Both the position numbers and the translations under genes were made by a program. This document shows, one piece after another, positions 1,529 through 61,138 of a stretch of 64,000 nucleotides of DNA (position 1 is the stretch's first letter; every line of letters begins with the position of its first letter). A model generated the notes under the pieces. It searched no databases, had not been told where the DNA came from, and was given only the letters and a program-made list of their open reading frames with translations. Origin of the DNA: an uncultured Bacteroidales bacterium (GTDB lineage: Bacteria > Bacteroidota > Bacteroidia > Bacteroidales > Paludibacteraceae); the NCBI GenBank assembly GCA_902800215.1, contig CADCDS010000003.1, positions 47,318 to 111,317 of the forward strand, written 5' to 3'.

Positions 1529-2424
1529 GAGCCATACGACACATATTTATCCTTTGTCTTTTGTCCTTTGTCCTTATTCCGGTAAAAGGTCAGTTGCTAT
1601 ACGAGATTTCGGGTAACGGGGTGAAAGACAAATCGTATCTGTTAGCGACGAACCGTTTGGTGGATATGACTTTTCTGGACACGATACCGAATGTGTTCAA
1701 ATGCTTTGGACAATGCGATAAAGTGATCACGGAATTTGCAATGCAAGACTATGAAGCCTTGTCTGCATTACGCCAGGCAGCGGTGCTACCCGACTCGATT
1801 AAACTGAGTAATTTTTACAGCGAAAGCGAATATACGCTAATTGATAATAGTCTTCGCATTGGTTTGGGCATGGGTTTAGATCAGCTATGCCGCATGAAAC
1901 CGGCGTATCTGACGGAGATGTACCGAACGGAATTGATGAAGAATTGGTTGCAGTTTGACGAGCAGCGATCGATGGAGAGTTTCTTCGAATCGATCGCCGC
2001 AGAACGGGATATGCCGGTGATCGGATTGGATGATATCGGGGAGACGATGTACATGCTTTTTGACCGGGAACCGTTTCATTGGCAGTGCACAGAGTTGCTG
2101 AAAGTGATCGAATATCCGGAGAATGAGGTGAAGCAAGAGAAGACGCTGAAGGCGATGTATCTGGACGGCAGACTGAGCGATATCGCGTACCAGGTGGAAG
2201 GGCCGGATAACAAGACCAGTATCTCCTTTTCGGACTATAAAGTCTATTGTGCGCGAAACAAAGAATGGGTCAAACGGTTAAAGAAACACCTGAAGGACGG
2301 GAATGCGTTTATCACGCTCAATGCCATCTATTTGGGAGGCGAGAAAGGATTAATTGAACAACTACGGGCGGCAGGATATCGGGTTCGGCCCGTGAACAGA
2401 GGAATAAAATTAAAACAACAATAA
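1525..2424 (+). CDS. TraB/GumN family secreted protein
   Basis: 299 aa with an N-terminal signal peptide. The mature part begins with the TraB/GumN pattern: an ISGNG..KSYLLAT strand, DTIPNVF, then a region ending VITEFAM, and a late GLIEQLRAAGYRV segment. The family is related to Tiki-type metalloproteases, but the substrate in Bacteroidota is not known. The start ATG overlaps the stop of the TPR gene, indicating translational coupling. The signal-peptide codons are built from a 7-bp tandem array (1550-1577). Family confidence is good; function is open. Confidence 0.8.
   Translation: MRAIRHIFILCLLSFVLIPVKGQLLYEISGNGVKDKSYLLATNRLVDMTFLDTIPNVFKCFGQCDKVITEFAMQDYEALSALRQAAVLPDSIKLSNFYSESEYTLIDNSLRIGLGMGLDQLCRMKPAYLTEMYRTELMKNWLQFDEQRSMESFFESIAAERDMPVIGLDDIGETMYMLFDREPFHWQCTELLKVIEYPENEVKQEKTLKAMYLDGRLSDIAYQVEGPDNKTSISFSDYKVYCARNKEWVKRLKKHLKDGNAFITLNAIYLGGEKGLIEQLRAAGYRVRPVNRGIKLKQQ
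1550..1577 (+). repeat. Heptamer tandem array in a signal peptide
   Basis: Four 7-bp units close to TCCTTTG encode the hydrophobic core of the TraB/GumN signal peptide. The same unit word recurs at 2995-3022 and 31783-31817. Confidence 0.8.
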
Positions 2425-2425
2425 G

Positions 2426-2983
2426 ATGAAAAAGGTATTTTCTGTATTGGTAGCGCTGACGTTAGCGCTGAGTGTAAACGCCGCTGAACGCGGTAAGTTC
2501 ATTCATGTGGACAACACGGTGAACAAGAACCTGAAACCACAGATTGCATTCCGCATCGACCATAAGGAGGATGCAGATGTAACGACATTGCTGGTGAAGT
2601 TAGTCAGTACCAGTGCGTACTATGAGTTCACCGACGCATCGCGTGTACTCTTTCGTTTGAGTGACGGCAAAGCGATCCGTCTGAACCGTAACGGTGCGGC
2701 AGTAAGCAATGAGAAGAAGTATTCTGAGAAGAAAGGTACGGCAACTATCACGTTCTACCCTACTGTCACGGAGTACGAAGTGACACCGGAGTTGATCGAG
2801 GCATTGGAGAAAGGCGAGACCGTAATCAAGGTGCGTATCGTACCAAAGGAGAATGAACCGAAGGACTACGATATCGTGGAGAGTTATCAGGCACGGTTCT
2901 CTTCTGACCTGCTCAAATCGTATCAGGAAGCGGTGTTAAACAACCGAAAAGCGCACTCCGACATTAGCGATGAGGATTTTTAA
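2426..2983 (+). CDS. Hypothetical secreted protein
   Basis: 185 aa, not recognised. The signal peptide is clear (MKKVFSVLVALTLALSVNA, cleavage after NAA or nearby). The mature protein is lysine- and glutamate-rich, with predicted beta strands (VTTLLVKLVSTSAYYEF, GTATITFYPTVTEYEVT) and no cysteines, which suggests a small beta-sandwich. It starts 1 bp after the preceding stop, and its last 14 bp overlap the start of the amidase-like gene, so it is probably expressed and exported with its neighbours. Confidence 0.7.
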   Translation: MKKVFSVLVALTLALSVNAAERGKFIHVDNTVNKNLKPQIAFRIDHKEDADVTTLLVKLVSTSAYYEFTDASRVLFRLSDGKAIRLNRNGAAVSNEKKYSEKKGTATITFYPTVTEYEVTPELIEALEKGETVIKVRIVPKENEPKDYDIVESYQARFSSDLLKSYQEAVLNNRKAHSDISDEDF

Positions 2984-5186
2984 ACATATATTTATCCTTG
3001 TTCTTTGTGCCTTGTTCTTTGTGCCAGCCAAGGCCGATATCGGCATGCAGGAGTTAGGGGACTCGTTAACCGCATGGACCGGTTTTTCATCCGTGTGGTC
3101 ACCGGCCGTAAAGGTGAAGAACCTGCGTGTGAATGGGAACAAGATCACGGTCAAGACCAATAAAACACTCAAAGATGTACGCTGGACGACCGCCAATATC
3201 GCTGAACTGAAACGCAAAGTGAGTCGTTGGGTGCTGGGTCATGAGAAAGGCAAAGTGACCATTCAGACGGCGAACATCGATATCGAGAATTTGGTTACCA
3301 ACTGCGCCAAAGGCATTCTTGCAACCGGAAAACCACACGACTTATCGGACCGAAACATTGCTTTGTATCCGAGTCACGGTCTGTATTACAACCGGGATCG
3401 GGATGAGTGGATCTGGCAACGTGCTACCTTATGGACCACGGTAGAGGACCTGTACAGCCAGGAATATGTGCGGCTGATCAAGCAGATGTTGGAGAATGCC
3501 GGTGCGACGATCCATATGCCGCGTGCCGGTCTTGAGCAACAACAACGAGGTATCTCCGGCATGCCGGCTTGGACCGAAGGCGCACGCTATTGGTTGATCT
3601 CGCAAGGTGCCGACTCTACCCTTTGGAACTTATACGAAGGGGATGAGTATAAGGATGACATGAAGTGCAGGGCGCTGTGGATCAATTCCTTAGAGACACC
3701 GATCGACCTGTGTCTGGCTTTTCATACCGACGGAAACGACAGCGGCAATGACAGCACGATCATCGGCACGCTGGTTATCTACACTGCCAAGGACGATGAC
3801 GGACATAGCAAGCTGAGAGACGGCAGAGACCGGGAGACCGTGAACCGAAACTTAGCGGATTGGATTCAGACGCAGGTGACGGAAGACTTACGGCATATCG
3901 CGCCGGAATGGACAAGGCGGCAACTCAAAGAAGCCAATTACTGTGAGACGCGTGTGCCGGTGGTGCCGAGTATCATCCTGGAACTGTTGAGTCACAAAAA
4001 CATGGCCGACATGCGGTACGGTTTGGATCCCAAGTTCCGTTTTGCCGCCAGCCGTGCCGTCTATAAAGGCATCTTACGCTATCTGAACGGTACCAACGCG
4101 GTGGTACAACCCTTACCTGTTCAACAATTGGCGATCACACAGGAAGGAGTGTTACAATGGAGACCCACTATTGATAGTCTGGAAACGACGGCTACCCCAT
4201 CCTATTACATGGTGTATATTCAGGAGAATGACGGCGACTGGAATGTCCAGCAAGTGGAAGAAGTGACGGAATTGCAGGTAGAGCTGAAACGCGGAGTACT
4301 ATATAACTACTATGTCGTCGCCGGCAATGAAGGAGGTCTGAGTATGCCGAGTCCTATTGTAAGCGCATATATGAGTGAGCAGGAGAATGCACCTATGGCG
4401 CTGGTGGTGGATGCGTTTGACGATGTGTACGGCGTAGAATGGTTCGCTGACAGCACCTATGCCGGTATCGTGCCGGGCAGTTATGCCTGTGAGAACTATT
4501 TCTCTTGCGCGTATATCGGCGAACAATGGAACTACACCCGCAGCGATGAATGGAAAGATGACGATAACTGCGGTTGGGGAGCTTGTTACCGCGACTATGC
4601 CGGCAAACAAACCATCGGCAACACCCATGACTGGTGTGCCCAACACGGACGAGTACTGCGCCAAATGCGAATCTCGTATGTCAGTTGTACGGCGGGAATG
4701 AAGGAAGCCTTCAGCCTTCAGCCTTCAGTATTCAGTCTTTTGGATATTGTCTGCGGTAGGCAGAGAGATGCATTATCGGCTGAGATCCAACAGTTTATCG
4801 CACCGTATCTAGATAAGGGCGGTAAGTTGTTACTGAGCACCGATCATTTCAGTTCTCTCGATCCCCAATGGGCAAAGAAGTACCTGCACGCGCAGTACTA
4901 TGCGGCGCAGGCTACGCACAGCGGCCGTGTCGTCAGTTCAAGGCATCGCCCGTATCAACTGGTGTTAAGGCCGAATGCGGAACAGCTTTTCACCTGTCAT
5001 CCGGAAGGATTAAAACCGGCGGACAATGAGGCAGAGAAAATTGCCACGTACGCAGATATGCGGTGTCCGGCAGCGATAGGTTATAATCACCGCACCTTAG
5101 TGTTCGGTTTTCCGTTGGAAGCGACGCAGGATTTTGAAAGTATCTGCCAGCATGCGCTCGAATGGCTGATGAATGAGGAGGAATAA
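2970..5186 (+). CDS. Secreted N-acetylmuramoyl-L-alanine amidase-like protein
   Basis: 738 aa. Signal peptide (MRIFKHIFILVLCALFFVPA), then an amidase_3-like domain at about residues 120-370: SHGLYYNRDRDEW, an LAFHTDGND motif matching the zinc-site HTD of the family, and an ILELLSHKN segment where the catalytic Glu is expected. A fibronectin III-like segment follows at about 400-460, then a C-terminal part with Trp-rich and Ser/Asp-rich stretches like proteins often annotated golvesin-like or xanthan lyase in Bacteroidales. Likely acts on peptidoglycan or a cell-surface glycan; the substrate is inferred only. Last gene of the operon, followed by a strong terminator. Confidence 0.72.
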   Translation: MRIFKHIFILVLCALFFVPAKADIGMQELGDSLTAWTGFSSVWSPAVKVKNLRVNGNKITVKTNKTLKDVRWTTANIAELKRKVSRWVLGHEKGKVTIQTANIDIENLVTNCAKGILATGKPHDLSDRNIALYPSHGLYYNRDRDEWIWQRATLWTTVEDLYSQEYVRLIKQMLENAGATIHMPRAGLEQQQRGISGMPAWTEGARYWLISQGADSTLWNLYEGDEYKDDMKCRALWINSLETPIDLCLAFHTDGNDSGNDSTIIGTLVIYTAKDDDGHSKLRDGRDRETVNRNLADWIQTQVTEDLRHIAPEWTRRQLKEANYCETRVPVVPSIILELLSHKNMADMRYGLDPKFRFAASRAVYKGILRYLNGTNAVVQPLPVQQLAITQEGVLQWRPTIDSLETTATPSYYMVYIQENDGDWNVQQVEEVTELQVELKRGVLYNYYVVAGNEGGLSMPSPIVSAYMSEQENAPMALVVDAFDDVYGVEWFADSTYAGIVPGSYACENYFSCAYIGEQWNYTRSDEWKDDDNCGWGACYRDYAGKQTIGNTHDWCAQHGRVLRQMRISYVSCTAGMKEAFSLQPSVFSLLDIVCGRQRDALSAEIQQFIAPYLDKGGKLLLSTDHFSSLDPQWAKKYLHAQYYAAQATHSGRVVSSRHRPYQLVLRPNAEQLFTCHPEGLKPADNEAEKIATYADMRCPAAIGYNHRTLVFGFPLEATQDFESICQHALEWLMNEEE
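2995..3022 (+). repeat. Heptamer tandem array in a signal peptide
   Basis: Four 7-bp units alternating between TCCTTGT-like and TCTTTGT/GCCTTGT, encoding the signal-peptide core of the amidase-like protein. Same word family as 1550-1577. Confidence 0.75.
4707..4741 (+). repeat. Heptamer tandem array inside the amidase-like gene
   Basis: Three perfect GCCTTCA units, then GTATTCA and a decayed unit. They encode the in-frame segment FSLQPSVFSLL. Confidence 0.85.
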
Positions 5187-5595: not shown

Positions 5596-6195
5596 ATGCG
5601 TCAAAAGAGTTCCATTATAGTGCCTCAAGGATGTAAACGTGTACTGCTGCATGCGTGCTGTGCGCCGTGTTCGAGTGCGATCGTGGAATGGTTGCTGGCG
5701 CACGATATCGAGCCGGTGATCTACTATTTTAATCCGAATATCTACCCGCTGGAGGAATATGAGATCCGGAAGAACGAGAGTAAAAGGCATGCGGAAAGTC
5801 TCGGTATCACATGGATAGATGATGACTATCGTCATGATGCCTGGCGGGAAGCGGTGTGCGGATTGGAACACGAGCCGGAGAGAGGAAGACGATGTGAAGC
5901 CTGCTTCTATCACCGACTGCTGGCAACAGCCAAGAAGGCGCATGAGATGGGAATAGAATACTTTGCCACCACCCTCGCCTCGTCCCGTTGGAAGAACTTA
6001 GAACAAATTAACGCCGCCGGACAAGCGGCAGCGTTAATGGTTAATGGCGAAGGGCCAAAGGCGAATGTTCAATTCTGGGCGCAGAACTGGCGGAAAGACG
6101 GTCTTCAGGAACGCAGAAACACGTTACTCAAAGAATACGGATTCTATAACCAGTTATACTGCGGTTGTGAGTTTAGCAACTCTCAAACTGCTTAA
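5596..6195 (+). CDS. queH: Epoxyqueuosine reductase QueH
   Basis: 199 aa. Performs the last step of queuosine synthesis, reducing epoxyqueuosine in tRNA. Shows the family's HACCAPC at the N terminus, YYFNPNIYP, the R-C-E-x-C pair (RRCEACFYHRL), ATTLASSRWKN and a late CGCEFS, giving the cysteines expected for the iron-sulfur cluster and reductase pair. A TTG at 5578 is in frame but lies only about 10 bp after the -7 box, so ATG 5596 is preferred. A heptamer array (6033-6067) adds an NGEGPKAN-type insert. The 3' end overlaps pheS convergently by 23 bp, with no terminator between them. Confidence 0.93.
   Translation: MRQKSSIIVPQGCKRVLLHACCAPCSSAIVEWLLAHDIEPVIYYFNPNIYPLEEYEIRKNESKRHAESLGITWIDDDYRHDAWREAVCGLEHEPERGRRCEACFYHRLLATAKKAHEMGIEYFATTLASSRWKNLEQINAAGQAAALMVNGEGPKANVQFWAQNWRKDGLQERRNTLLKEYGFYNQLYCGCEFSNSQTA
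6033..6067 (+). repeat. Heptamer tandem array inside queH
   Basis: Five 7-bp units: GTTAATG twice, GCGAAGG, GCCAAAG, GCGAATG. It joins two word families seen separately elsewhere (GCGAATG in gcvP). Encodes VNGEGPKAN in frame. Confidence 0.85.
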
Positions 6196-7219
6196 GGAAG
6201 CGTACGTCATTCTCCGAGAACAGGCGCAGGTCCTTGACGCGGTATTTGAGGTTCGTGATACGCTCCACACCCATACCGAAAGCATAACCGCTGTATTCCT
6301 TACTATCTATACCGCAGGCTTCGAGTACGTTGGGGTCCACCATACCGCAGCCGAGGATTTCCACCCAACCGGTGTTTTTGCAGAATGAACATCCTTTGCC
6401 GCCGCAGATATTACAGCTGATATCCATTTCGGCACTCGGTTCCGTGAACGGGAAATACGACGGACGGAGACGAATCTTGGTCTCTGCTCCGAACATCTCC
6501 TTACTGAAATACAGCAATGCTTCCCGCAGGTCAGCAAAGCTGACATTCTTGTCGATATACAGTCCTTCTACCTGATGGAAGAAACAGTGTGCACGCGCCG
6601 AGATAGCTTCGTTACGATATACCCTACCCGGACAGAGCACACGGATCGGCGGTTTCTGGCTGGTCATAACACGTGTCTGCACAGACGAAGTATGGGAACG
6701 CAGCAGGATATCCGTCGGTTTTTGCACGCCGATCTCTTTCTCCACGAAGAACGTATCCTGCATGTCACGAGCCGGGTGTTCGGGTGCAAAATTAAGCATG
6801 CCATAGACGTGCTTGTCATCTTCCACTTCCGGTCCCTGCGCAATGGTGAAACCGATACGGCTGAAGATATCTTCGATCTCTTCACGCACGAGCGACAAAG
6901 GGTGACGGGTACCTAAAGCGATAGGATCCGGCGTACGAGTGAGGTCAACACTTTGGCTGTTGGCTTTTAGCTGTTGGCTTTCGATCGTCTCTTTGAGTTC
7001 ATTGATACGGCTTTCAGTTTCCTGACGCAGCTGGTTCAATAGCTGGCCCAATTCCCGTTTCTGCTCTGCCGGTACGGTACGGAACTCATTGAAGAGCGAG
7101 GTAATCTCGCCTTTCTTACTGAGATACTTGATACGCAGCGCTTCCAATTCTTCCGCATTCGCTGCTTTTAAGTCTTTGACTTGGCCTAATAAGGCTTGAA
7201 TATTTTCTTTTAATTCCAT
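6173..7219 (-). CDS. pheS: Phenylalanine--tRNA ligase alpha subunit
   Basis: 348 aa. Class II aminoacyl-tRNA synthetase subunit that charges tRNA-Phe with PheT (not in the window). N-terminal coiled coil (about 1-85) for tRNA binding, then the catalytic core with motif 2 (GRVYRNEAISARAHCFFHQVEG), a Cys4 insert (CNICGGKGCSFC), LGCGMVDPNVL, and motif 3 (GMGVERI). A longer frame reaches 7273, but MELKEN at 7219 is the family start and fits the 2-bp gap to the upstream gene. The coiled-coil end contains a heptamer array giving QQLKANSQ. Last gene of the gdhA operon. Confidence 0.96.
   Translation of the reverse strand: MELKENIQALLGQVKDLKAANAEELEALRIKYLSKKGEITSLFNEFRTVPAEQKRELGQLLNQLRQETESRINELKETIESQQLKANSQSVDLTRTPDPIALGTRHPLSLVREEIEDIFSRIGFTIAQGPEVEDDKHVYGMLNFAPEHPARDMQDTFFVEKEIGVQKPTDILLRSHTSSVQTRVMTSQKPPIRVLCPGRVYRNEAISARAHCFFHQVEGLYIDKNVSFADLREALLYFSKEMFGAETKIRLRPSYFPFTEPSAEMDISCNICGGKGCSFCKNTGWVEILGCGMVDPNVLEACGIDSKEYSGYAFGMGVERITNLKYRVKDLRLFSENDVRFLKQFESC
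6954..6981. repeat. Heptamer tandem array inside pheS
   Basis: Four 7-bp units alternating TGGCTNT and TGGCTTT/TAGCTGT (coding strand: AGCCAAC/AGCTAAA type). Encodes QQLKANSQS. Same word family as the arrays in alaS and valS. Confidence 0.85.
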
Positions 7220-9631: not shown

Positions 9632-9642
9632 ATAAATTTATA

Positions 9643-9670
9643 ATTTACCATTTACCATTTACCATTTACA
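9643..9670. repeat. Heptamer tandem array at a gene boundary
   Basis: Four units of ATTTACC (last ATTTACA) across the 3' end of the PEP/pyruvate-binding gene. The stop codon at 9659 lies inside the array. Confidence 0.9.
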
Positions 9671-22763: not shown

Positions 22764-22818
22764 CGCACTTATCGCGCACAAATGACGCACTTATCTCGTA
22801 CTTATCACGCACTTATAT
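22764..22818. repeat. 11-bp tandem array, five units
   Basis: Five exact 11-bp steps near CGCACTTATCN (minus strand ATAAGTGCGTG) in the hpf-fbp gap. The same 11-mer family recurs at 26518-26561. One unit per helical turn would put every copy on the same DNA face. Confidence 0.85.
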
Positions 22819-24939: not shown

Positions 24940-24974
24940 ACTGTTAAAACGTTAAATTGTTAAACTGTTATACG
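24935..24974. repeat. 8-bp tandem array at the fbp stop
   Basis: Five 8-bp units GTTAAANN (last GTTATACG). It contains the fbp stop codon and the ddh stop codon. Word family related to 60194-60233. Confidence 0.88.
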
Positions 24975-35360: not shown

Positions 35361-35368
35361 GCTATAAA

Positions 35369-35396
35369 GGTTATTGGTTATAGGTGATAGGTTAAT
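35369..35396. repeat. Heptamer tandem array between glnN and the aminotransferase gene
   Basis: Four units GGTTATN/GGTGATA/GGTTAAT. Contains the glnN stop codon. Inverted relative of the CCTATCA array at 37700. Confidence 0.85.
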
Positions 35397-37699: not shown

Positions 37700-37734
37700 C
37701 CTATCACCTATAACCTATCACCTTTCGCCATTAC
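37700..37734. repeat. Heptamer tandem array at the 3' end of the hydrolase gene
   Basis: Units CCTATCA, CCTATAA, CCTATCA, CCTTTCG, CCATTAC. The hydrolase stop codon (37718) and the codons for SNGER lie in it. Confidence 0.85.
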
Positions 37735-48257: not shown

Positions 48258-50870
48258 TTATTGTAAAGCGGCTAATAACTCTTCCAAAGCTGCTTTCAGT
48301 CCGTTGACATCACGACCGCCGGCTGTAGCCATCCACGGTTGACCGCCTCCACCGCCTTGAATATGCTTGGCAGCAGACTTGATCATCGCGCCTGCATTCT
48401 TTCCGGCATCAACGAGCGGTTGGGACAAGAAGACGGATATCATCGGTTTTCCCTCCCATTCGGTCGCACCTACTACAGCAAAATGCACGTCGGTGAACTT
48501 ACCGCGTAATAACGGCATCACACCACGGATCATCTCCGGGTTCTGTTCGCCTTCCAGACGGACTAACTTGATATCTCCGAAGTCCTCCGCACGGTTGATG
48601 AGGATATCTCTAAACTGCGCTATCTTCTCTGCGGTGAACTGCTCGATCTGCTTCTTAAGCGCCGCATTCTCATCAATGGATTTCTGAATAGCGTTCACCA
48701 GATCGGGTGCGTTATGCAAGGTCTCCCGTAAGTTATTCAGCATATCTTGCGCCGCATAGAACACTTCATCCGCCTTAGCAGCCGTCACCGCTTCGATACG
48801 ACGTACGCCGGCCGCGACACTGGTCTCCATGATGATACGGATAGAACCGATACGACCGGTACTCGACACGTGGCATCCACCGCAGAGTTCTACCGAGTCA
48901 CCGAACTTGATCACACGCACATCGTCTCCGTATTTTTCTCCGAATAAAGCCATTGCACCCATCGCTTTGGCTTCGGCAATCGGCGTGTGCCTACTCTCCT
49001 CCAAACGGAAGTCACGACGCACAAACGCATTCGCTACTTTCTCCACCTGACGCAGTTCTTCCGGCGTCACCTTCTGGAAATGACTGAAGTCAAAACGCAG
49101 GCTGTCGGGTGTCACCAAACTACCCTTCTGCTCCACATGCTTACCCAACACTTCACGCAACGCGTGGTGAAGGATATGCGTAGCCGAGTGGTTACATGCA
49201 ATCGCCTGACGACGGTCGGCATCTACGGTAGCTGTTAGCTGTTGGCTATTGGCTATTAGCTCTTCCGGCAGTTCTGCCAGAATATGTACCGGTAAGTTAT
49301 TCTCTTTCTTAGTATCCAACACGCGAACATTTCCGAGCGTACCTGTATCACCAACTTCACCACCCATCTCGGCGTAGAACGGTGTCTTATCGAGTACGAC
49401 CTGATAGAACGATTTACCTTTCTGACTCACCTGACGATACCGCAGGATACGGCATTCTACGGACAGTTGGTCATAACCCACAAACTCCGTATCGCCTTCA
49501 GCCAGTACAGTCCAGTCACCCAGATCCTGCTTATTGGCCGAACGACCCATCTCCTTCTGGTGCTCCAAGGCCTTGTTATACTCCTCCTCATTGGTGGTAA
49601 AGCCGTTCTCACGCAAGATCAATTCCGTCAGATCCAAGGGGAAGCCGTAGGTATCTTTGAGTGTAAACACATCCACACCCGAGATCTCCGTCTTACCGGC
49701 TTTGCGTGCATCATCCATCAGTTTATCCAACAAACCGATACCCTTATCCAGCGTACGTAGGAAAGCTTCCTCTTCACTCTTAATCACCGGTGTGATCTGT
49801 GCCTGCTGTGCTTTGAGTTCCGGATACGCTTCACCGAGGTCTTCGATGAGTTGCGGAACGAGTTGGTACAGGAATGCGCTGCGCATACCTAAGAACGTAT
49901 ATCCATAACGAACAGCACGCCGTAAGATACGACGGATGACATAACCGGCTTTCTCGTTACTCGGCAACTGACCGTCGGTGATGGCAAACGCGATCGTACG
50001 AATATGATCGGCAATAACACGCATCGCGATATCGATCTTCTCATCCTTACCGTATTCACAACCGCAGATAGCGCCGATACGACGCAGCATCGGCTGGAAG
50101 ACATCCGTATCGTAGTTACTGGTCTTGCCCTGAATCGTACGCACCAGACGCTCAAAACCCATTCCGGTGTCGATCACTTTCTTGGCCAGCGGTTCGAGAG
50201 ACCCATCCGCCTTGCGGTTATATTGCATGAAGACGATGTTCCAGATCTCGATCACCTGCGGATGATCTTTGTTCACTAACTCACGTCCCGGCACTTTGGC
50301 ACGTTCTTCTGCAGAGCGGCTATCGACATGAATCTCACTACACGGACCGCAAGGACCCGTATCACCCATCTCCCAGAAGTTATCATGCTTGTTACCGTTC
50401 AAAATATGATCCGCCGGTAAGTGTTTCGCCCAGATAGAAGCAGCCTCGTCATCCCGACTCAGACCTTCTTCCGGAGAACCTTCAAACACCGTGGCATACA
50501 AGTTAGCCGGATCGATCTTGAGCACATCGACGATATATTCCCATGCGAAGTCGATCGCTTCTTTCTTGAAATAATCGCCGAAGGACCAGTTGCCTAACAT
50601 CTCGAACATGGTGTGGTGGTAGGTATCGTGACCTACTTCTTCCAGGTCATTATGTTTTCCCGACACACGCAGACATTTCTGGCTGTCTGCCACACGGGGA
50701 TATTTGATAGGATCATTGCCTAAGATGATACCCTTCCACGGGTTCATGCCGGCATTGGTGAACATCAGCGTAGGATCATCCTTAATCACCATCGGAGCTG
50801 AAGGAACTACTTGGTGTCCCTTCGATGCCATAAAGTCCAAAAAACTTTGTCTAATTTCTTTACTTGTCAT
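48258..50870 (-). CDS. alaS: Alanine--tRNA ligase
   Basis: 870 aa, full length. Class II catalytic core ([51 protein letters not shown]), editing domain with zinc ligands HSATH and CGGCH ([26 protein letters not shown]), and the C-Ala glycine-rich end ([14 protein letters not shown]). Between the core and editing domain, a heptamer array encodes [14 protein letters not shown]. Preceded by pdxA (6-bp gap) and followed by gtrA (7-bp gap). Confidence 0.97.
49230..49264. repeat. Heptamer tandem array inside alaS
   Basis: AGCTGTT twice, GGCTATT twice, AGCTCTT. Encodes [10 protein letters not shown]. Confidence 0.93.
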
Positions 50871-50876: not shown

Positions 50877-51983
50877 TTATTCTTTATTTTCCTGATATCT
50901 TGTGGTTTTGAAATCAATAAACTCCCGACGGGGTTTACCTTCGGTGTCCGGTCGCTCAATGAAGGGCAGAGGATCGGCACGCAGTTCATCATATTCCGCC
51001 CGTTGCCGCAGCACGTCGATGGCCATAAAAAGGGCATTACGCATGGATCGTTCATCGGCCTGGTTCTTTCCGGCGATGTCGTATCCCGTACCGTGATCGG
51101 GTGAAGTGCGTACGATGTTCAGTCCCGCCGTGTAGTTCACTCCCGTCATATCGAGCGTCTTAAACGGAATCAGGCCCTGATCATGATACATCGCCAGCAC
51201 AGCATCGAACTGCACAAAATGCCCCGTTCCGAAGAATCCGTCTGCGGCATAAGGACCAAACGCCCAGATACCTTGTTTCATCGCTTGCTCCAACGCCGGA
51301 ATAATGATCTCCTGCTCCTCTTTTCCCATCAGGCCTTGGTCTCCGGCATGCGGATTCAATGCCAGCACGGCGATGCGGGGTTTCTCATAACCGAAGTCCC
51401 GTTTGAGACTGTTGTTCAACAGCGTCAGCTTGGACAGGATGCGTTCCTCGGTGATCTGTGCCGGGATATCGGCGATCGACACGTGGTTACAAACCAATGC
51501 CACCCGCAGGTTTCCGCTGCATAGCATCATCAGGCTTCCACCATTTGCATCATTTGCACCATTAAAACATTTCTCAAGATATTCCGTGTGTCCTCCGTGC
51601 AGCGCTTCCTTATTGATCGGCGCGGTCACGATCGCCTGCACCTTACCGGCTTTCAGATCCGCACAGGCACGATCCAACGATGCCTTCGCCGCCTTGTTGG
51701 ACATCTCCGTGTTCTTACCAAACTCCACCGGCACGTTATCCGTGTAACAGCTGATCAGGTTCAGACGTCCGTCTTTCGCCTGTTCCGGCGTGTCGATCAA
51801 GTTCCACGTGATGTTCCGGTATTCCTCATCCAAAGTCTGAATATGTTGCTTGGCGACCGCTGCATTTCCGTAGATCACCGGGCGCATGATCTCAAACACA
51901 TACCCGTTGAGCAGTGCTTTGATGATCACCTCGTATCCTACTCCGTTCGTATCACCGGCCGTTATTGCAATGATAGGTTTCAT
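50877..51983 (-). CDS. pdxA: 4-Hydroxythreonine-4-phosphate dehydrogenase
   Basis: 368 aa. NAD-dependent step of the DXP-dependent pyridoxal phosphate pathway. Seen: PIIAITAGDTNGVGYEVIIKAL, VTAPINKEALHGGHTEYL with the metal/substrate His, NPHAGDQGLMGKEE, ADGFFGTGHFVQFDAVLAMYHDQGLIPFKTL and RTSPDHGTGYDIAGK. A 9-bp array near residue 145 adds NGANDANGG. Follows the nitroreductase gene by 26 bp that are themselves a heptamer array. It feeds PLP to the many PLP enzymes in the window (inference). Confidence 0.96.
   Translation of the reverse strand: MKPIIAITAGDTNGVGYEVIIKALLNGYVFEIMRPVIYGNAAVAKQHIQTLDEEYRNITWNLIDTPEQAKDGRLNLISCYTDNVPVEFGKNTEMSNKAAKASLDRACADLKAGKVQAIVTAPINKEALHGGHTEYLEKCFNGANDANGGSLMMLCSGNLRVALVCNHVSIADIPAQITEERILSKLTLLNNSLKRDFGYEKPRIAVLALNPHAGDQGLMGKEEQEIIIPALEQAMKQGIWAFGPYAADGFFGTGHFVQFDAVLAMYHDQGLIPFKTLDMTGVNYTAGLNIVRTSPDHGTGYDIAGKNQADERSMRNALFMAIDVLRQRAEYDELRADPLPFIERPDTEGKPRREFIDFKTTRYQENKE
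51541..51567. repeat. 9-bp tandem array inside pdxA
   Basis: CCATTTGCA, TCATTTGCA, CCATTAAAA; coding strand gives NGANDANGG. Period 9 keeps frame. Confidence 0.65.
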
Positions 51984-52018
51984 AAAATCAAAAATCTAAA
52001 ATCTAAAATTTAAAATTG
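51984..52018. repeat. Heptamer tandem array between pdxA and the nitroreductase gene
   Basis: Five AAAATCT-type units (AAAATCA, AAAATCT twice, AAAATTT, AAAATTG). Fills the whole gap and includes the nitroreductase stop codon. Confidence 0.9.
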
Positions 52019-52717: not shown

Positions 52718-55345
52718 ATGGATAGTAAATATAATCCTACGGACATTGAAGCACGCTGGTATCAATACTGGCTGGACAACAAGTTATTCCACTCCGAACC
52801 GGACGGTCGCGAACCGTTTACCATCGTCATTCCGCCGCCTAATGTAACGGGTGTGCTGCATATGGGTCACGTGCTCAACGAGACGATCCAGGATATCCTC
52901 GTGCGTCGTGCACGTCTGGAAGGTAAGAACGCTTGTTGGGTTCCGGGTACCGACCATGCTTCGATTGCTACCGAAGCCAAGGTTATCAAGCGCCTGAAGG
53001 AACAAGGAATCAACAAGTCGGACTTGACGCGTGAACAATTCCTCAAACATGCCTGGGATTGGACCGATGAGCACGGAGGAATCATCTTAAGACAGCTTCG
53101 CAAACTCGGTTGTTCCTGCGATTGGGATCGTACGTCCTTTACCATGGACGAGACCCGTTCCAAAGCGGTCATCAAGGTGTTCTGCGACCTGTATAACAAA
53201 GGTCTCATCTACCGTGGTTTGCGGATGGTGAACTGGGATCCGGAACGACAGACGGCTCTTTCCGACGAGGAGGTGATCTACCACGACGAGCATAACAAGT
53301 TCTACTATCTCCGTTACGAAGTTGCGGAAGAACCCGGCAAATACGCTATTGTGGCTACCACTCGTCCGGAGACGATTTTCGGCGATATCGCCGTGTGCAT
53401 CAACCCCAAGGAGGAGAAGAACCAATGGCTCAAAGGCAAGCATGTGATCGTGCCGGGTGTCGGTCGTGTGATCCCGATCATTGAGGACCGTTATGTAGAG
53501 ATCGGTTTCGGTACCGGATGCCTCAAAGTGACGCCGGCACATGATGTGAATGACTATGCCTTGGGACAGAAATATAACCTCAAGACCATCGACATCTTCA
53601 CCGCCGATGCTCATCTGAACATGGACACAGTGGAAGAAGAGCTGCAACCGAACGTACGCAAATACCACGGTATGGATCGTTTTGACTGCCGCAAGCAGAT
53701 CGTCGAAGATCTGCAGGCACTCAACCTCGTGGAGAAGATCGAAGACTACGACAACAAGGTCGGTTATTCCGAGCGTACGAATGTACCTATCGAGCCGCGG
53801 TTGAGTCTCCAATGGTTCGTGAAGATGCAGCATTTTGCCGATATCGCATTACCTCCGGTAATGAACGACGACATCGTCTTCTATCCAACCAAATACAAGA
53901 ACACCTATCGTAACTGGCTCGAGAACATCAAAGACTGGTGTATCTCCCGTCAACTCTGGTGGGGTCACCGCATCCCGGCGTACTACGATGCCGACTTGTT
54001 GGCACAGACCGGTCTGGAGAACTACCCGGATGACAAGATCATCGTTTCCGAGACCAAGCCCGAAGGCAACTACGTGCAAGACGAAGGAGCGTTGGATACC
54101 TGGTTCAGCAGCTGGTTATGGCCGATCTCGCTGTTCAACGGTATTGAAGAACCGAACAACAAAGAGATCAATTACTATTACCCGACGGCAGATCTTGTAA
54201 CCGGTCCGGATATCATCTTCTTCTGGGTAGCACGTATGATCATGGCCGGTTATGAATACCAAGGTAAGATGCCGTTCAAGCACGTCTATTTCACGGGTAT
54301 CGTACGCGATAAATTAGGTCGTAAGATGAGTAAATCGCTGGGTAACAGCCCGGATCCGCTGGATCTGATCGAGCGTTTCGGTGCTGACGGTGTCCGCATG
54401 GGTATTTTGCTCAGTGCACCTGCCGGAAACGACATCCTCTACGATGATTCGCTGTGCGAACAAGGACGTAACTTCTGCAATAAGATCTGGAACTGTTTCC
54501 GCATGGTGAAGGGTCTCGAAGTAGCAGACATCGCACAACCGGAGACCAGCCAATATGCGATCGACTGGTTTAATGCGAAGTTAGCGGAGACGGAAGCAAA
54601 TATAGCCGATTTGTTCAGCAAATACCGCCTGTCCGAAGCCCTCATGGAGATCTACAAACTCTACTGCGACGAGTTCAGCGGATGGTATTTGGAGATGATC
54701 AAACCGGGTTATCAACAACCGATCGACAAAGCGACCTATGAGGCAACACTGGCCTTCTTCGATCGTCTGCTCCGTGTGCTCCACCCATTCATGCCGTTCA
54801 TCACGGAAGAACTCTGGCAGAACCTCTACGAGCGTAAGGCCGGCGAAAGCATTATGAATGCCGAGATACCGGTATCCCGGGATACCGAGAAACCGGAAAT
54901 CCTCGGTCAAATCGAGACTCTCAAAGAGATCATCACCAATATCCGTGCTATTCGTGCATCGAAGAATATCCCGCAAAAAGAGCGCCTGACGCTCATTTCG
55001 CCCGAACCGCTTAACGCACTGGTAGACAAGCTGGCTAACGTTGAGGTAGAGCTAACAGCTAACAGCCAAAAGCTAACTGCCAATTGCTCCAAGTTCATCG
55101 TTGGTACCACGGAGTTCGCTATCCCGATGGATGCGTTCATCAATGTGGACGAAGAGATCCAAAAACTCGAAGCCGATCTGGCGCACCAACAAGGATTCCT
55201 GAAAGGGGTAATGGCGAAACTGAGTAACGAACGGTTTGTAGCCAACGCGAAACCGGAGATCGTGGAGTTAGAGCGCAAAAAGAAAAGCGACGCGGAATCC
55301 CGTATCGCTGCCATCGAAGAAGCTATTAAAGCTCTGAAAAACTAA
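52718..55345 (+). CDS. valS: Valine--tRNA ligase
   Basis: 875 aa, full length class I synthetase. HIGH-type motif [16 protein letters not shown], editing (CP1) domain with [13 protein letters not shown] and [13 protein letters not shown] motif [16 protein letters not shown], helical anticodon domain and a C-terminal coiled coil ([19 protein letters not shown]). A heptamer array near residue 780, just before the coiled coil, encodes [13 protein letters not shown]. Own promoter; the stop lies in a perfect 9-bp inverted repeat. Confidence 0.97.
55051..55085 (+). repeat. Heptamer tandem array inside valS
   Basis: GCTAACA twice, GCCAAAA, GCTAACT, GCCAATT. Encodes [11 protein letters not shown], a 7-residue peptide repeat. 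Confidence 0.94.
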
Positions 55346-55360: not shown

Positions 55361-56174
55361 GCAACGCCAAATGATGCTCGTGTTTCCAACGTTTATGTTG
55401 GAGCACGAGTTCATTTTTTGTGGGATTCGTGCAGAACGTATCCACGAACCGCTCCCAGATATAGTTCACCGCCAAAGAGGACGGATGCACTAAATCATCG
55501 GCATAGAACCGATAATCCCGTAACTCATCGAGCATAATCTCATAGCTTGGATAGTAATCACCTAACTGCTCTACGGCTTGCAAAAGGGTCGCTTTACTGA
55601 GTTGGTTCTCATGTAAACCGTCACGTATATGCCGAATCGGAGAAACGGTAAAAAGCCAGTGTTTATCGGGATACTGTGCCAAGATGGGTTTCCAGGCCTC
55701 CACGATCTCTTCCACCGTCAGACGGCGTCTGGTAAAAGCACTCTCCGGTAACTTATGACAATTACCTACTATCTTGCCATCTTTCTCGTACACCCAAGCG
55801 GTACCAAAGGTAACGATCACCACTGTCGCCTCCTTCAAGGCCTTTTGCATCGTCTCAATGGAAGCTCTTATTACATTCTCCGCTTCGGATTTATCAGCAC
55901 GAGAGAAAGAACCATGATGCGACATTGCATGCCATAAACCTTCGTGGTAAACCAGTTGGAGATTGGAAATTGGAGATTGGAGATTGATGGCTTGTGCGAT
56001 AGACAAGGGATTATAAAGCGTTCCGAAAGGATTGCAAGTGACATGCAGATAGCGTTGTGCCATCTGTTCGCCTATCTCATCGGAGAAACACGAACCCAGC
56101 ATCAGGATCTTATCCTCATACCCGATCTTCCATTCGGAAGGCTTAATATCTACTATAGTCTGCAATTTAACCAT
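55356..56174 (-). CDS. GSCFA domain protein
   Basis: 272 aa. The name-giving motif is clear (ILMLGSCFSDEIGEQM), followed by NPFGTLYNPLSIA, VTFGTAWVYE, TVSPIRHIRDGLHENQLSKA, YPSYEIMLDELRDYRFYADDLVHPSS: an SGNH-like esterase family found in Bacteroidota and Alphaproteobacteria. Substrate unknown, perhaps acylated cell-wall or lipid material (inference). A heptamer array inserts NLQSPISNLQ after PLSIAQAI. Overlaps no gene; 26 bp downstream of the LolC-like gene. Confidence 0.87.
   Translation of the reverse strand: MVKLQTIVDIKPSEWKIGYEDKILMLGSCFSDEIGEQMAQRYLHVTCNPFGTLYNPLSIAQAINLQSPISNLQLVYHEGLWHAMSHHGSFSRADKSEAENVIRASIETMQKALKEATVVIVTFGTAWVYEKDGKIVGNCHKLPESAFTRRRLTVEEIVEAWKPILAQYPDKHWLFTVSPIRHIRDGLHENQLSKATLLQAVEQLGDYYPSYEIMLDELRDYRFYADDLVHPSSLAVNYIWERFVDTFCTNPTKNELVLQHKRWKHEHHLALH
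55955..55989. repeat. Heptamer tandem array inside the GSCFA gene
   Basis: GTTGGAG, ATTGGAA, ATTGGAG twice, ATTGATG. Encodes INLQSPISNLQ, nearly the glnN peptide. Confidence 0.93.
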
Positions 56175-56202
56175 AACCCGTAACCTGTAACCCGTAACCC
56201 TT
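56175..56202. repeat. Heptamer tandem array between the LolC-like and GSCFA genes
   Basis: AACCCGT, AACCTGT, AACCCGT, AACCCTT; fills the gap exactly, touching the start codon of one gene and the stop of the other. Confidence 0.92.
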
Positions 56203-58352: not shown

Positions 58353-58394
58353 ATCCAATTTCCAATCTCCAATTTCCAATCTCCAATATCCAAT
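58353..58394. repeat. Heptamer tandem array between rsmE and the PAP2 gene
   Basis: Six units NTCCAAT with the first base alternating A, T, C, T, C, A. Fills the 50-bp gap and touches the rsmE stop. Confidence 0.94.
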
Positions 58395-59098
58395 TACTCG
58401 TTTACGAGTACCGCCGTATGACAAGCCACCATAGCGGCAGTCTCCGTGCGCAGACGTGCGGCACCCAAACTCACCGGCACATAACCGTTCGCCAAGGCCC
58501 ACTCCACTTCCGGCGGCGAGAAATCACCTTCTGCGCCGATCAGCACCGTCGTCTCGTGCCCACGCACAATGCGTTGCTGCAGGGCATACTTATGATCCGA
58601 CGGCTCGTACCCTTCGATACAATGTGCGATGAACTTATCGCCTTCCACCTGCAGGTCGGTCATCCTCGTTAAGGGTTGCAACACCGGGAAACGGGTTTTC
58701 AGACTCTGCTTGGCAGCAGAAACCAGGATCTTCTGTAACCGCTCGTGGTTGATCGTCTTCCGTTCCGAATGGTCGCACAGGATCGGGATGATCTCATCCA
58801 CACCCATCTCCACACATTTCTCGATGCACCATTCCAGGCGATCGATGTTCTTGGTAGGTGCCACGCATATGCGGATGAATCCCTCATGCAGCGGTGTCGG
58901 TGTCTCCACCTGATCGATCTTCAGCTCGCAATGCTTCCGATGCGGATTGGTGATGGTGCAGCGGTATAACTGCCCTGCCCCGTCGGTCACCAGGATCTCA
59001 TCCCCCGCCGTGCGGCGCAACACCTGCACACAATGACCGCTTTCCTCTTCCGGAAGCGTCAGCGTTTCTTTGATATTTGGTGCATAAAATAAATACAT
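58394..59098 (-). CDS. rsmE: 16S rRNA m3U1498 methyltransferase RsmE
   Basis: 234 aa. SPOUT methyltransferase that methylates U1498. N-terminal PUA-like part (MYLFYAPNIKETLTLPEEESGHCVQVLRRTAGDEI), KNIDRLEWCIEKCVEMGVDEIIPILCDHSERK, and the knotted SAM site GAEGDFSPPEVEWALANGYVPVSLGAARLRTETAAM, all typical. Follows prfA across a 28-bp gap made of an 8-bp array. Confidence 0.95.
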   Translation of the reverse strand: MYLFYAPNIKETLTLPEEESGHCVQVLRRTAGDEILVTDGAGQLYRCTITNPHRKHCELKIDQVETPTPLHEGFIRICVAPTKNIDRLEWCIEKCVEMGVDEIIPILCDHSERKTINHERLQKILVSAAKQSLKTRFPVLQPLTRMTDLQVEGDKFIAHCIEGYEPSDHKYALQQRIVRGHETTVLIGAEGDFSPPEVEWALANGYVPVSLGAARLRTETAAMVACHTAVLVNE

Positions 59099-59100
59099 GT

Positions 59101-59132
59101 CGTCATATCGTCATGACGTCATTTCGTCATAA
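59101..59132. repeat. 8-bp tandem array between prfA and rsmE
   Basis: Four units CGTCATNN (AT, GA, TT, AA). Contains the prfA stop codon. Confidence 0.9.
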
Positions 59133-60194
59133 CTCACTTTCCTTCATTCGTTCTGCGTTCTCCGCTACCTGCAGTGCATCGATCACGCCTTGGATATCGC
59201 CATCCATGAAGGCGGCTAAGTTATAGACGGTATAACCGATACGGTGGTCGGTGATACGGCCTTGCGGATAGTTATACGTCCGTATCTTCGCACTGCGGTC
59301 ACCCGTGGACACCATGGTCTTACGGCGTGCTGCGATGTCATCGATATATTTCTGATGCTCCTTATCGTAGATCTGCGTACGCAGGCGCGCAAGCGCACGT
59401 TCTTTATTTTTAGGTTGGTCACGCGTCTCGGTACACTCGATCAATATCTCCTGCACTTCGCCCGTGTTGGGGTTCTTCCAGTTATAGCGAAGCCGCACAC
59501 CGGACTCCACCTTGTTCACGTTCTGTCCGCCTGCACCGCCGGAACGGAAAGTCTCCCATTTGATCTCTCCCTCGTTGATGTGCACCTCAAACTCATCCGC
59601 TTCGGGTAAGACGGCTACGGTAGCCGCCGAGGTATGTACTCTACCCTGGGTCTCCGTCACCGGCACACGCTGCACGCGGTGTACACCCGACTCGTATTTG
59701 AGTGTCCCATAGACGTTCTCTCCCGTCACGTTGAAGATGATCTCCTTATACCCGCCCACAGCACCTTCGCTGAACGAGGAGATCGTATATTTGAATCCCT
59801 TGATCTCAAAGTATTTGGTGTACATCCGGAACAGGTCACCGGCGAAGAGCGATGCTTCGTCACCACCGGTACCGCCACGAATCTCCATGACGACGTTCTT
59901 GCCGTCTTCGGGATCTTGGGGTAAGAGTTGGAGTTTGAGTTCTTCTTCGAGTTGAGGAATCTGCGGCTCCAGTTCATCGATCGCCTCTTTATAGTTGATC
60001 TCCTTGGCTTCCTTGAGGTCATCTAAGGCCTGACGGTATCTGCGTGCACACTCGAGTACGCGTTCCAAGTCATGGTAGTCCCGGTTCAGACGCACATAAC
60101 GCGCCTGATCGGCAATGACGGCAGGGTCTGTAATGAGTAGCGATACCTCGTGAAACTTCGCCTCGAGTCCTTCTATTTTATCGAGTATATTCAT
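59127..60194 (-). CDS. prfA: Peptide chain release factor 1
   Basis: 355 aa. Releases peptides at UAA/UAG. Seen: acidic domain 1 helices, MEIRGGTGGDEASLFAGDLFRMY, the stop-codon-reading PxT motif in RVPVTETQGRVHTSAATVAVLP, which marks RF1 rather than RF2, and the catalytic GGQ in FRSGGAGGQNVNKVESGVRL. Between folD and rsmE in a minus operon. Confidence 0.96.
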   Translation of the reverse strand: MNILDKIEGLEAKFHEVSLLITDPAVIADQARYVRLNRDYHDLERVLECARRYRQALDDLKEAKEINYKEAIDELEPQIPQLEEELKLQLLPQDPEDGKNVVMEIRGGTGGDEASLFAGDLFRMYTKYFEIKGFKYTISSFSEGAVGGYKEIIFNVTGENVYGTLKYESGVHRVQRVPVTETQGRVHTSAATVAVLPEADEFEVHINEGEIKWETFRSGGAGGQNVNKVESGVRLRYNWKNPNTGEVQEILIECTETRDQPKNKERALARLRTQIYDKEHQKYIDDIAARRKTMVSTGDRSAKIRTYNYPQGRITDHRIGYTVYNLAAFMDGDIQGVIDALQVAENAERMKESEL

Positions 60195-60233
60195 TAACGA
60201 TTTAACAGTTTAACGTTTTAACGATTTAACGCC
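60194..60233. repeat. 8-bp tandem array between folD and prfA
   Basis: Five units TTAACNNN (GAT, AGT, GTT, GAT, GCC). Touches the prfA start codon and contains the folD stop. Related to 24935-24974 by its TTAAAC/GTTTAA words. Confidence 0.92.
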
Positions 60234-61096
60234 GCCTGCAACGTATTTTGCAGGAGGCTGACGATGGTCATGGGTCCTACACCACCGGGAACGGGGGTTA
60301 TATAGGCGGCTTTGGGTGCCACGTTGTCGAAGTCTACGTCTCCGACGAGATGACCGTCCACACGGTTGATACCCACGTCGATGACGACAACTCCTTCTTT
60401 CACCATATCTGCCGTCAGCAATCCGGGACTACCGGCAGCTACGATGATGATATCCGCCGTGCGGCAGATAGCGCCTAAGTCCTGCGTCTTGCTATGACAG
60501 ATCGTGACGGTAGCGTCTCCTAAAGAGGCGGCACTCATGCCCGGTAAACTCAGATACGGACGTTGCATAAGCAGCATAGCGATCGGTTTGCCTACTATGT
60601 TCGATCGGCCGATGACCACTACGTGCCGACCTTCCGTCTGGATCTGATACCGTGCCAACAGTTCCCGGATCCCCCGTGGTGTGGCACTAATGATCGACGG
60701 CAGACCCTGAACAGTGCGGCCTACGTTCTCCGGCGTCAGGCCATCCACATCCTTCCGGTAGTCGATAGCGGAGAGGATACGCGTCTCGTTGATATGATCG
60801 GGCAAGGGTAACTGCACGATGAAACCGTCTATCGTCCCGTCGTTGTTCAGTCGATGCACCTCGGACAACAGGGTCTGCTCCGTAATCTCCGTCTCATATG
60901 CGATCTTCACCGCTTCAATTCCCACTTCCGCACAGGCCTTTAGCTTATTGTTCACATAGGTCTCACTCGCCGGATTATGTCCCACAATCACGATCGCTAA
61001 CTTCGGCACTCGCTGTCCCGAAGCCTTGATGGCGTCTATCTCCGTGCGTAACTCACCACGTATCTCCGCTGCTATTTTCTTTCCGTCTAATATCAT
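60218..61096 (-). CDS. folD: Bifunctional methylenetetrahydrofolate dehydrogenase/cyclohydrolase
   Basis: 292 aa. Interconverts methylene-, methenyl- and formyl-THF with NADP. Seen: PKLAIVIVGHNPASETYVNNKLKACAEVGIEA with the catalytic lysine, GFIVQLPLPDHINE, VDGLTPENVG, VVIGRSNIVGKPIAMLL, VGDVDFDNV and PVPGGVGPMTIVSLLQNTL. Supplies one-carbon units together with the glycine cleavage system. Flanked on both sides by short arrays. Confidence 0.97.
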   Translation of the reverse strand: MILDGKKIAAEIRGELRTEIDAIKASGQRVPKLAIVIVGHNPASETYVNNKLKACAEVGIEAVKIAYETEITEQTLLSEVHRLNNDGTIDGFIVQLPLPDHINETRILSAIDYRKDVDGLTPENVGRTVQGLPSIISATPRGIRELLARYQIQTEGRHVVVIGRSNIVGKPIAMLLMQRPYLSLPGMSAASLGDATVTICHSKTQDLGAICRTADIIIVAAGSPGLLTADMVKEGVVVIDVGINRVDGHLVGDVDFDNVAPKAAYITPVPGGVGPMTIVSLLQNTLQAALNR

Positions 61097-61138
61097 AACC
61101 TGTAACCTGTAACCCGTAACCCGTAACCTGTAACCCTT
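61097..61138. repeat. Heptamer tandem array upstream of folD
   Basis: Six units AACCYGT (last AACCCTT). Fills the gap between folD and the upstream gene, starting at the first base after the folD start codon. Confidence 0.95.

Follow-up and report, generated by a model that had tools for sequence, protein, structure and literature searches.

The stretch of DNA considered here (the window, 64,000 nucleotides) corresponds to positions 47,318 to 111,317 of contig CADCDS010000003.1 in assembly GCA_902800215.1 (G000:C3:47318-111317) and belongs to an uncultured bacterium of the Bacteroidales, family Paludibacteraceae, whose draft genome (G000) amounts to 1.96 Mb in 30 contigs and is 85% complete. 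It carries short tandem arrays, most of them with a 7-bp period, both within genes and in the gaps between them. Period 7, followed by period 8, is in large excess in all five genomes sampled from the genus, a limited and lineage-specific set of repeat words occurs at unlinked sites within a lineage, and the word at a given site differs between species. The arrays were detected with Tandem Repeats Finder (TRF, score 30) and by an independent autocorrelation count (score of at least 12, or at least 10 for densities per 100 kb). Genes were named from Pfam or by reading the translations, the names alaS, valS, prfA, folD, rsmE, pdxA, GSCFA and PAP2 being presumed from the translations, and arrays were classed as lying in genes or in gaps from simple gene calls made for this work. 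Among known RNA families, only the tRNA was found in the window. The arrays are given below; all were found by TRF unless otherwise stated, and those also found by autocorrelation are so marked.

1546..1575, minus strand: period-7 GGACAAA, near the start of the plus-strand open reading frame (ORF) 1525-2424; also autocorrelation.
2996..3025, minus strand: period-7/14 CCTTGTTCTTTGTG, near the start of the plus-strand ORF 2970-5186.
4706..4739, minus strand: period-7 GGCTGAA, within the plus-strand ORF 2970-5186; also autocorrelation.
6033..6047, no strand: two GTTAATG units, weak.
6953..6979, plus strand: period-7 TTGGCTG, within a pheS-like gene (6173-7273, minus strand; Pfam).
9635..9669, minus strand: period-7 GGTAAAT, in the gap between two minus-strand ORFs; also autocorrelation.
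21096..21120, minus strand: mixed period-7/8 GCGAATGG, within a gcvP-like gene (Pfam).
22764..22816, no strand: period-11 array.
24001..24035, plus strand: period-7 GGAAAGT, within an FBPase_2 gene (Pfam); also autocorrelation.
24935..24970, plus strand: period-8 GTTAAANY, at the 3' end of the FBPase_2 gene, with a near copy at L001:5292-5327.
26521..26561, no strand: period-11 array.
29875..29900, plus strand: weak period-7 GGGTTAC/GGGTGAC, absent from the TRF list.
31784..31815, minus strand: period-7 GTACAAA/GGACAAA, at a gene junction.
35368..35394, plus strand: period-7 GGTTATA, in a gap between co-directional ORFs.
37510..37540, plus strand: period-7 ATTGGAG, within a glutamine synthetase III gene (Pfam).
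37700..37723, minus strand: period-7 GGTGATA.
41427..41461, plus strand: period-7 ATTGGAT, within a VWA-domain gene (Pfam); also autocorrelation.
42109..42134, plus strand: period-7 TTGGCTG, within the same VWA-domain gene.
49229..49261, plus strand: period-7 TAGCTGT, within alaS (translation ANSQQLTA).
51539..51563, no strand: period-9 array, within ORF 50877-51983 (pdxA-like by reading).
51983..52016, minus strand: period-7 GATTTTA, immediately upstream of the start of ORF 50877-51983; also autocorrelation.
55050..55077, minus strand: period-7 AGCTAAC, within valS.
55956..55986, plus strand: period-7 ATTGGAG, within ORF 55356-56174.
56174..56200, minus strand: period-7 GGGTTAC, filling a stop-to-start gap.
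58354..58395, minus strand: period-7 ATTGGAN, in the stop-to-start gap before a PAP2-like gene.
59096..59131, minus strand: period-8 ATGACGNN, between prfA and rsmE.
60194..60231, minus strand: period-8 GTTAAANY, between folD and prfA.
61096..61136, minus strand: period-7 GGTTACG/GGTTACA, immediately upstream of folD.

These places had been listed by eye in the first-pass annotation (22 with period 7, three with period 8, one with period 9 and two with period 11), and when periods 5 to 13 were compared 27 of the 28 scored best at the period given there, the exception being the array at 21096, which is best at 8. TRF at score 30 picks up every one of these coordinates but 29875. Eight of the arrays are weak (2995, 6033, 6954, 21096, 29875, 31783, 35369 and 42111); they fall within the top 0.8-1.7% of random window places, a ranking in which the random places include the arrays themselves, and are therefore unremarkable if taken alone. 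At an autocorrelation score of at least 12 the window contains 12 arrays of period 7, against 0.0 in 10 first-order Markov sequences, three of period 8 and 0-1 of each remaining period from 4 to 13. In a sample of 444 kb from G000 (19 stretches of 20 kb plus the window) the counts were 73 for period 7, 18 for period 8, 5 for period 11 and at most 2 for the remaining periods from 4 to 13, and three order-3 Markov sequences gave 0.0 at both period 7 and period 8. The period-7 excess over shuffled sequence is thus confirmed (73 against 0.0); the strictness originally ascribed to it was slightly overstated, since period 7 is dominant but period 8 forms a real second class. Higher-order periods of 14 and 21 bp are also abundant in this sample, which indicates that slippage is still active. 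Arrays of period 11 are fewer, and all five sampled genomes contain them (3-8 each at score 12; in the window, 22764-22816 and 26521-26561).

The nearest alaS records in one public collection belong to metagenome genomes of Bacteroidales/Paludibacteraceae, many of them of ruminant or gut source. In 36 genomes of the same genus (G001-G036) the valS protein is 69-93% identical to that of G000 in full-length matches, a few genomes giving partial matches only, and among 30 valS genes compared as DNA the closest pair is 86% identical over 1652 aligned bases. One genome per species was compared throughout, and all of them are drafts. Four congeners, G015, G006, G030 and G014, were sampled at 185-200 kb each. 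Eight of the ten G015 stretches were placed over matches to an element named E1, described below, which biases the density and words of this genome towards E1, and its figures were recomputed without it; several G006 and G030 stretches were placed on earlier search matches, so that the four relatives are non-random samples. Arrays per 100 kb (score of at least 10) reached 36.5 in G015, with its stretches chosen over E1, 29.5 in G006, 19.1 in G000, 18.5 in G030 and 16.2 in G014. In a wider set of 80 alaS loci of Bacteroidales records (1.0 Mb) period 7 leads the short periods with 40 arrays, followed by period 8 with 9 and by at most 5 for the others from 4 to 13; among longer periods, 14 gave 26, 21 gave 27, 22 gave 18 and 15 gave 8. 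Period-7 arrays are unevenly spread in this set: they occur in 7 of the 16 loci that are genus-like, in 13 of 53 others and in none of the 11 assigned to named isolates from other genera, a group that includes one metagenome bin (L088).

The same words recur at unlinked places far beyond chance. Among 85 period-7 arrays of G000 there are 160 same-word pairs, against a mean of 3.7 (maximum 11) in 200 draws of genomic heptamers, which is an excess of about 40 times. Observed and expected pairs were 79 and 2.7 in G015 (44 and 1.7 without E1-like arrays), 51 and 1.6 in G006, 15 and 0.7 in G030, and 9 and 0.5 in G014. Words said to recur within the window do so at separate arrays in the case of ATTGGAG, AGCTGTT, AACCCGT, CCTTTGT and CCTATCA; GCGAATG occurs in one window array, and GGCGAAT/GGCGAAA arrays are present elsewhere in the G000 genome. 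Each genome uses dozens of words. The commonest in G000 are ATTGGAG/GGAGATT (15 of 85 arrays) and GGGTTAC (9), no single word being dominant and free-position variants being common. The leading words elsewhere are AATAGCC/AATAGCT in G015 (AAAGGTG and AAAGTCG without E1-like arrays), AAATTTC and AAATCAT in G006, and AACTCAT in G014. Three ATTGGA-N units followed by ATT give 84 overlapping matches in G000, 1-20 in 12 of 40 other congeners and none in the remaining 28; three ATTTGA-N units give 79 matches in G034 and 12 in G000, no other genome exceeding 17. Overlapping matches are not independent loci in these counts, for which reversed-pattern controls gave at most 10 in any genome. Same-word rates are 0.018-0.037 within genomes and 0.000-0.023 between them. 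This species specificity of the words suggests that they spread from place to place within a lineage.

Comparison of orthologous sites leads to a similar picture. Of 430 arrays with enough flanking sequence, 182 have an orthologous site in another species, and the 461 resulting comparisons comprise 150 with an array in the partner (counted at a looser score of 7) and 311 without. Among 439 non-redundant comparisons there was no array in 309, another word in 107 and the same word, within one mismatch, in 23, several of these last being mirror views of one locus or chance likeness. The arrays are thus not fixed at the same loci with the same units. Where the words differ (52 pairs in the sampled species), their frequency is 0.036 in their own genome versus 0.013 in that of the partner (28 pairs versus 13, with 11 ties). 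At a pair of loci in G015 and G030 (L186:16228-16250 and L213:3087 onward) the two genomes are identical over more than 80 bases surrounding a shared array, against 73-74% identity at the least conserved codon phase, a degree of likeness that suggests a possible recent exchange of a short tract.

Several sites of the window illustrate this turnover. The valS loop has AGCTAAC in G000 and G015, GGTTACG in G035, CTCAACG in G007 and CAACCTG in G017, and most others of the 30 genomes compared by eye are without a clear array. The gap before the PAP2-like gene contains ATTTGAR in G006 and G026, period-8 GTTAAACY in G021 and AATCATA in G030, and no array in G003, G034 or G027; that before rsmE holds ATGACGNN, base-identical, in G030, about ten TAACCCG/TAACCCA units in G006, and is empty in G003, G034 and G026. 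At 55956..55986 different words are found in G030, G034 and G006 and none in G003, G026, G002 and G027; at 60194..60231 there is ATTGAAG in G003 and an empty site in G030, G026 and G006. The junction at 31784..31815 shows a TTTCACC type in G030, a CAAATCT type in G006 and a gap of 14-15 nt in G003, G002 and G004. The G006 orthologue of 1546..1575 holds two other heptamer arrays and that of G030 none; the site of 4706..4739 is without an array in G030 and carries another word in G006. At 9635..9669, E1 is found in G015, other short arrays in G003, G002 and G030, and none in G004 and G035; at 21096..21120, CTTTCAA-type arrays are found in G015 and G030. Related to this, the array in glutamine synthetase III (37510..37540) adds a net 9 bp versus five relatives and 0 versus G002, and that in alaS (49229..49261) adds a net 9 bp versus G030, G003 and G027, 0 versus G002 and G004, and is shorter than in five others.

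Most arrays have been gained by insertion at places that tolerate about 30 bp, namely in co-directional gaps or, with the reading frame kept, in genes. The 31 gap arrays set against a well-aligned, array-free orthologue (50 comparisons) have a median length of 32 bp and add a median of 30 bp net (quartiles 15.5 and 48). The 18 gene arrays add a median of 11.5 bp net, and despite the 7-bp unit the net difference in length is divisible by 3 in 28 of 29 comparisons. Alignments that left over 30 flanking bases unaligned were set aside, and the most extreme comparison per array and the medians give the same picture. The 85 period-7 arrays of G000 lie in genes (42), co-directional gaps (41), a convergent gap (1) and at an edge (1), with none in divergent gaps. 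Co-directional, divergent and convergent gaps add up to 26.9, 6.4 and 5.7 kb, and gaps are strongly favoured per kb. By their G skew, 22 of the 42 arrays in genes are antisense, 19 sense and one neither. Divergent gaps hold three period-8 arrays in G000 and, in G014, six period-7 arrays in 5.6 kb. The G015 stretches, the densest of the five genomes and placed in eight of ten cases over E1, have 54 arrays (47 of period 7 and 7 of period 8) in co-directional gaps, of which 104 were called.

In the classes examined, each unit combines a fixed core with one or more free positions. Within the ATTGGAN class (20 arrays of G000 with 87 units) the units deviate from the consensus of their own array 1, 1, 2, 1, 9, 5 and 25 times at the seven successive positions (chi-square 73, 6 degrees of freedom). 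Nearly all of the deviations lie at positions 5-7, a pattern that decay by random mutation does not produce. Among nine classes tabulated, period-8 GTTAAANY is as sharp as ATTGGAN, and the GCT class of G015 and the AAATTTG class of G006 vary at three or more positions.

One clear case of dispersal is E1, which came to light because unlinked loci in G000 and G015 share 51 bases exactly. Its form, ACWTTAGCTGTTAGCCGTTAGCNNTTAGCTAATAGCCAATAGCC(AATAGCC)AARAGCYAAAGT, is at once heptamer-periodic and an imperfect hairpin; this consensus was read from the copies and not all of them fit it. The 38-base core, with at most 3 mismatches, matches G015 13 times (12 places) and G000 3 times, with 0 matches in 39 congeners and 0 for the reversed control; when 295 genomes were drawn from the order, G015 not being among them, only G000 contained it. 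Judged by the flanking sequence, at least two of these places in G000 and G015 are orthologous. E1 lies stop-to-start between ORFs on its own strand in 11 of 15 places, and the mirror test on the opposite strand gives 1 of 15, a place that satisfies both; the other four comprise one ORF end without a clear next start, two places after tRNA-like sequence and one setting that is promoter-like by reading. Selection for a hairpin at the RNA level is unsupported, as the antisense fold (-19.4 kcal/mol) is more stable than the sense fold (-16.1 kcal/mol).

Other features of the window lie apart from the arrays. The region 14175-16227 contains an Abi_2-like gene (14319-15086). It matches G030:C7:62400-63397 at 95% identity and, in its next stretch, G004:C50:17672-18761 at 92%, where the usual identity in the same search is 70-80%; it lies near a tRNA-Ser (17334-17423) and looks like a defence-type island that may have been recently exchanged. 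A 489-bp tandem duplication (77% matches) at 39604-40589 is located within a BspA-type leucine-rich-repeat gene. Among the matches listed, four short stretches (37615-37705, 41135-41237, 13963-14174 and 17439-17566) match many separate places in ten relatives, and they are perhaps conserved promoter architecture or another dispersed repeat.

Heptanucleotides are described as the commonest long simple sequence repeats in many bacteria in the sections of PMC4679880 and PMC4692102 available here, where the idea of slippage by a polymerase footprint is credited to Mrazek et al. 2007; dispersal of single words (TAACTGA, GGGAATC, GATAGRA) in some genomes is described there and in the corresponding part of PMC6749651. 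The present arrays share with those repeats the prevalence of period 7 and a plausible stepwise slippage; they differ in that words recur far beyond chance and vary by species and by orthologous site, and about half of the arrays sit within genes even though 7 is not divisible by 3. The TAACTGA repeats of marine Beggiatoaceae, some Cyanobacteria and five Bacteroidetes are, in the same part of PMC4679880, likewise dispersed arrays of few units, often in gaps a short way ahead of start codons and with no evident mobilising mechanism, but they consist of one word and related heptamers are rarely repeated, whereas here there are dozens of words, free positions, a period-8 class and many copies in genes. 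The resemblance to cyanobacterial heptamers proposed in the first-pass annotation extends to form, and to the presence of one word at many unlinked sites, but not to a single dominant word or a predominantly intergenic location. The GGGAATC / GGGGA(T/C)T repeats of Xanthomonas and Nostoc, as described in the available part of PMC4692102, also have conserved and free positions, mostly four units, and a length and sequence that vary between related species; that paper deals with one G-quadruplex-forming word type per genome, unlike the multi-word set found here. Borg tandem repeats show the same fast turnover, presence in gaps and ORFs and extra protein residues, but according to the sections used of PMC9879509 they are mostly perfect and locus-unique, with ORF units divisible by three, and are held by their authors to be of local origin. 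Here the words are not locus-unique, and period-7 arrays sit in genes with the frame kept by net length. REPINs and the REP-RAYT system, in the portion of PMC3116915 drawn on, resemble E1 as short dispersed hairpins with a lineage-limited burst, and E1 is the only one of the present repeats that is a dispersed palindromic hairpin; it differs in being built of heptamers and mostly placed stop-to-start on one strand, and no Y1 transposase (RAYT, Y1_Tnp) was detected in G015, nor in G006 or G014. Multi-word, species-specific heptamer dialects in Bacteroidales appear to be new, nothing of the kind having been found in the literature outside subscription journals and preprints.

The reading preferred here, to which a probability of about 0.5 is given, is that the arrays form a population of dispersing tandem repeats, each short (about 30 bp), copied in trans and then grown by slippage. 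An array tract, or one to two units of it, would be copied to a new site during replication or repair, possibly by template switching primed by the short repeated core, for which a dedicated transposase would be unneeded; slippage in 7-, 14- or 21-bp steps would then lengthen and homogenise the new tract, and copies breaking genes or promoters would be removed by selection. In E1, a whole array would have been copied with its unit order and hairpin form. A number of observations weigh against this reading. Eight distinct loci have an identical consensus word in two species, and 251 of their 256 array bases agree beside flanks whose least conserved codon phase is 0.47-0.85 identical; arrays are thus either replaced outright or hardly change, in a set that excludes arrays decayed past recognition. 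This near-invariance is not predicted by neutral dispersal alone, and it could come from purifying selection, recent short-tract exchange or homogenisation. Of 111 cases with an empty orthologue, 6 had the full word there, versus 2.2 for permuted words, in a test where a planted seed gave 29 at 20% divergence and 7.1-3.7 at 40-50%, which is the approximate third-codon-position divergence here, so that the count speaks neither for nor against a local seed. Net gain was nil for 4 of the 31 arrays in gaps and 4 of the 18 in genes. The contrast between dialects is not absolute, as word sharing between G030 and G006 (0.023) nearly equals the internal rate of G030 (0.024), and no donor-recipient pair was caught among genomes that represent one species each. 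The order of variant units, measured as locus pairs with a 21-base match versus six unit shuffles for each genome, is shared in G015 (66 versus 10.3) only through E1 (6 versus 5.0 without it), weakly in G000 (30 versus 18.7; 29 versus 15.5 without E1) and not beyond shuffling in G006 (10 versus 8.3), G030 (2 versus 1.5) and G014 (1 versus 5.0). Most arrays are therefore not verbatim copies, and direct copying of whole arrays as a general rule is rejected; the earlier proposal of a dispersing or templated process holds for dispersal within lineages, and its templating part is unsupported. Local spreading, with the same words within 5 kb, reached p=0.033 in G000 only, the other four genomes being not significant, and it is not claimed.

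An alternative is independent local slippage, in which the polymerase slips by about 7 bp, its footprint, any local heptamer is amplified, and words recur through sequence preference. The dominance of period 7, the frequent 14- and 21-bp higher-order repeats, the slight local enrichment of the word where the orthologous site is empty (mean best match 5.28 versus 5.09 +/- 0.06) and a variant order little shared between loci apart from E1 agree with it. It is nevertheless considered unlikely, because of the 160 same-word pairs versus 3.7 in G000, the amplification of cores one base apart (ATTGGA-N and ATTTGA-N) in different species, and the nearly identical 38-nt order of E1 at 12 places in G015. 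Together with the species-specific dialects and the orthologous sites, this bears out the initial view that slippage at single sites does not explain the recurring words. The arrays might also be selected sites, either tandem binding sites or intercistronic RNA elements, with words that recur through selection and a host-factor specificity that drifts between species. The free positions at fixed places in ATTGGAN units (chi-square 73), the almost unchanged shared arrays (251/256), the one-strand stop-to-start placement of E1 (11/15 versus 1/15) and the rarity of G000 period-7 arrays in divergent gaps (0 in 6.4 kb versus 41 in 26.9 kb of co-directional gaps) would fit such sites; however, there are dozens of words per genome, 42 of 85 period-7 arrays of G000 lie in genes on either strand, most orthologous sites are without the array, and divergent gaps do carry three period-8 arrays in G000 and six period-7 arrays in G014, so that this explanation is held to be rather unlikely.

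Known mobile-element machinery, that is, hairpins of the REP/REPIN type moved by a RAYT transposase or writing by a reverse transcriptase from an RNA template, is regarded as very improbable. E1 does resemble REPINs as a dispersed, mostly intergenic imperfect palindrome able to form a hairpin, but most words are non-palindromic, Y1_Tnp has no match at E<=0.001 in the E1-rich G015, in G006 or in G014 and mostly partial matches elsewhere, and RVT_1 is found once in G015 and in none of G000, G006 and G014. Over the 41 draft genomes of the genus, Y1_Tnp passes the cut-off in 13 (with two partial matches of about 24 bits in G000), RVT_1 was detected in 10, including G015 and G030, and not in 31, and Ku in none; none of the three seems to be required, although each single absence is weak in draft genomes (G015 is 78% complete). 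Reverse transcriptase, RAYT and Ku are thus disfavoured as drivers by their patchy or nil occurrence. A bolder possibility, judged distinctly unlikely, is that rumen and gut Bacteroidales have a heritable array-writing process, by an enzyme or a repair route, which would write a core plus one to two unspecified bases with period 7 or 8 at many sites, its word drifting as a lineage-wide dialect.

The reason for the predominance of heptanucleotides has been a standing question since at least the 2007 survey cited in the available sections of PMC4679880. A genus with comparable insertion points makes this question testable, as the birth of an array at a new site can be set against growth in place, and the approximately 40 genomes provide marked insertions for this, with sites that are empty, hold another word or hold the same word. 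Besides, repeat insertions have contributed several residues to conserved enzymes here (alaS, valS, glutamine synthetase), a point of relevance to annotation and to models of protein evolution. If there is an array-writing process in these bacteria, arrays all over the chromosome would evolve in concert, like telomere or satellite repeats.

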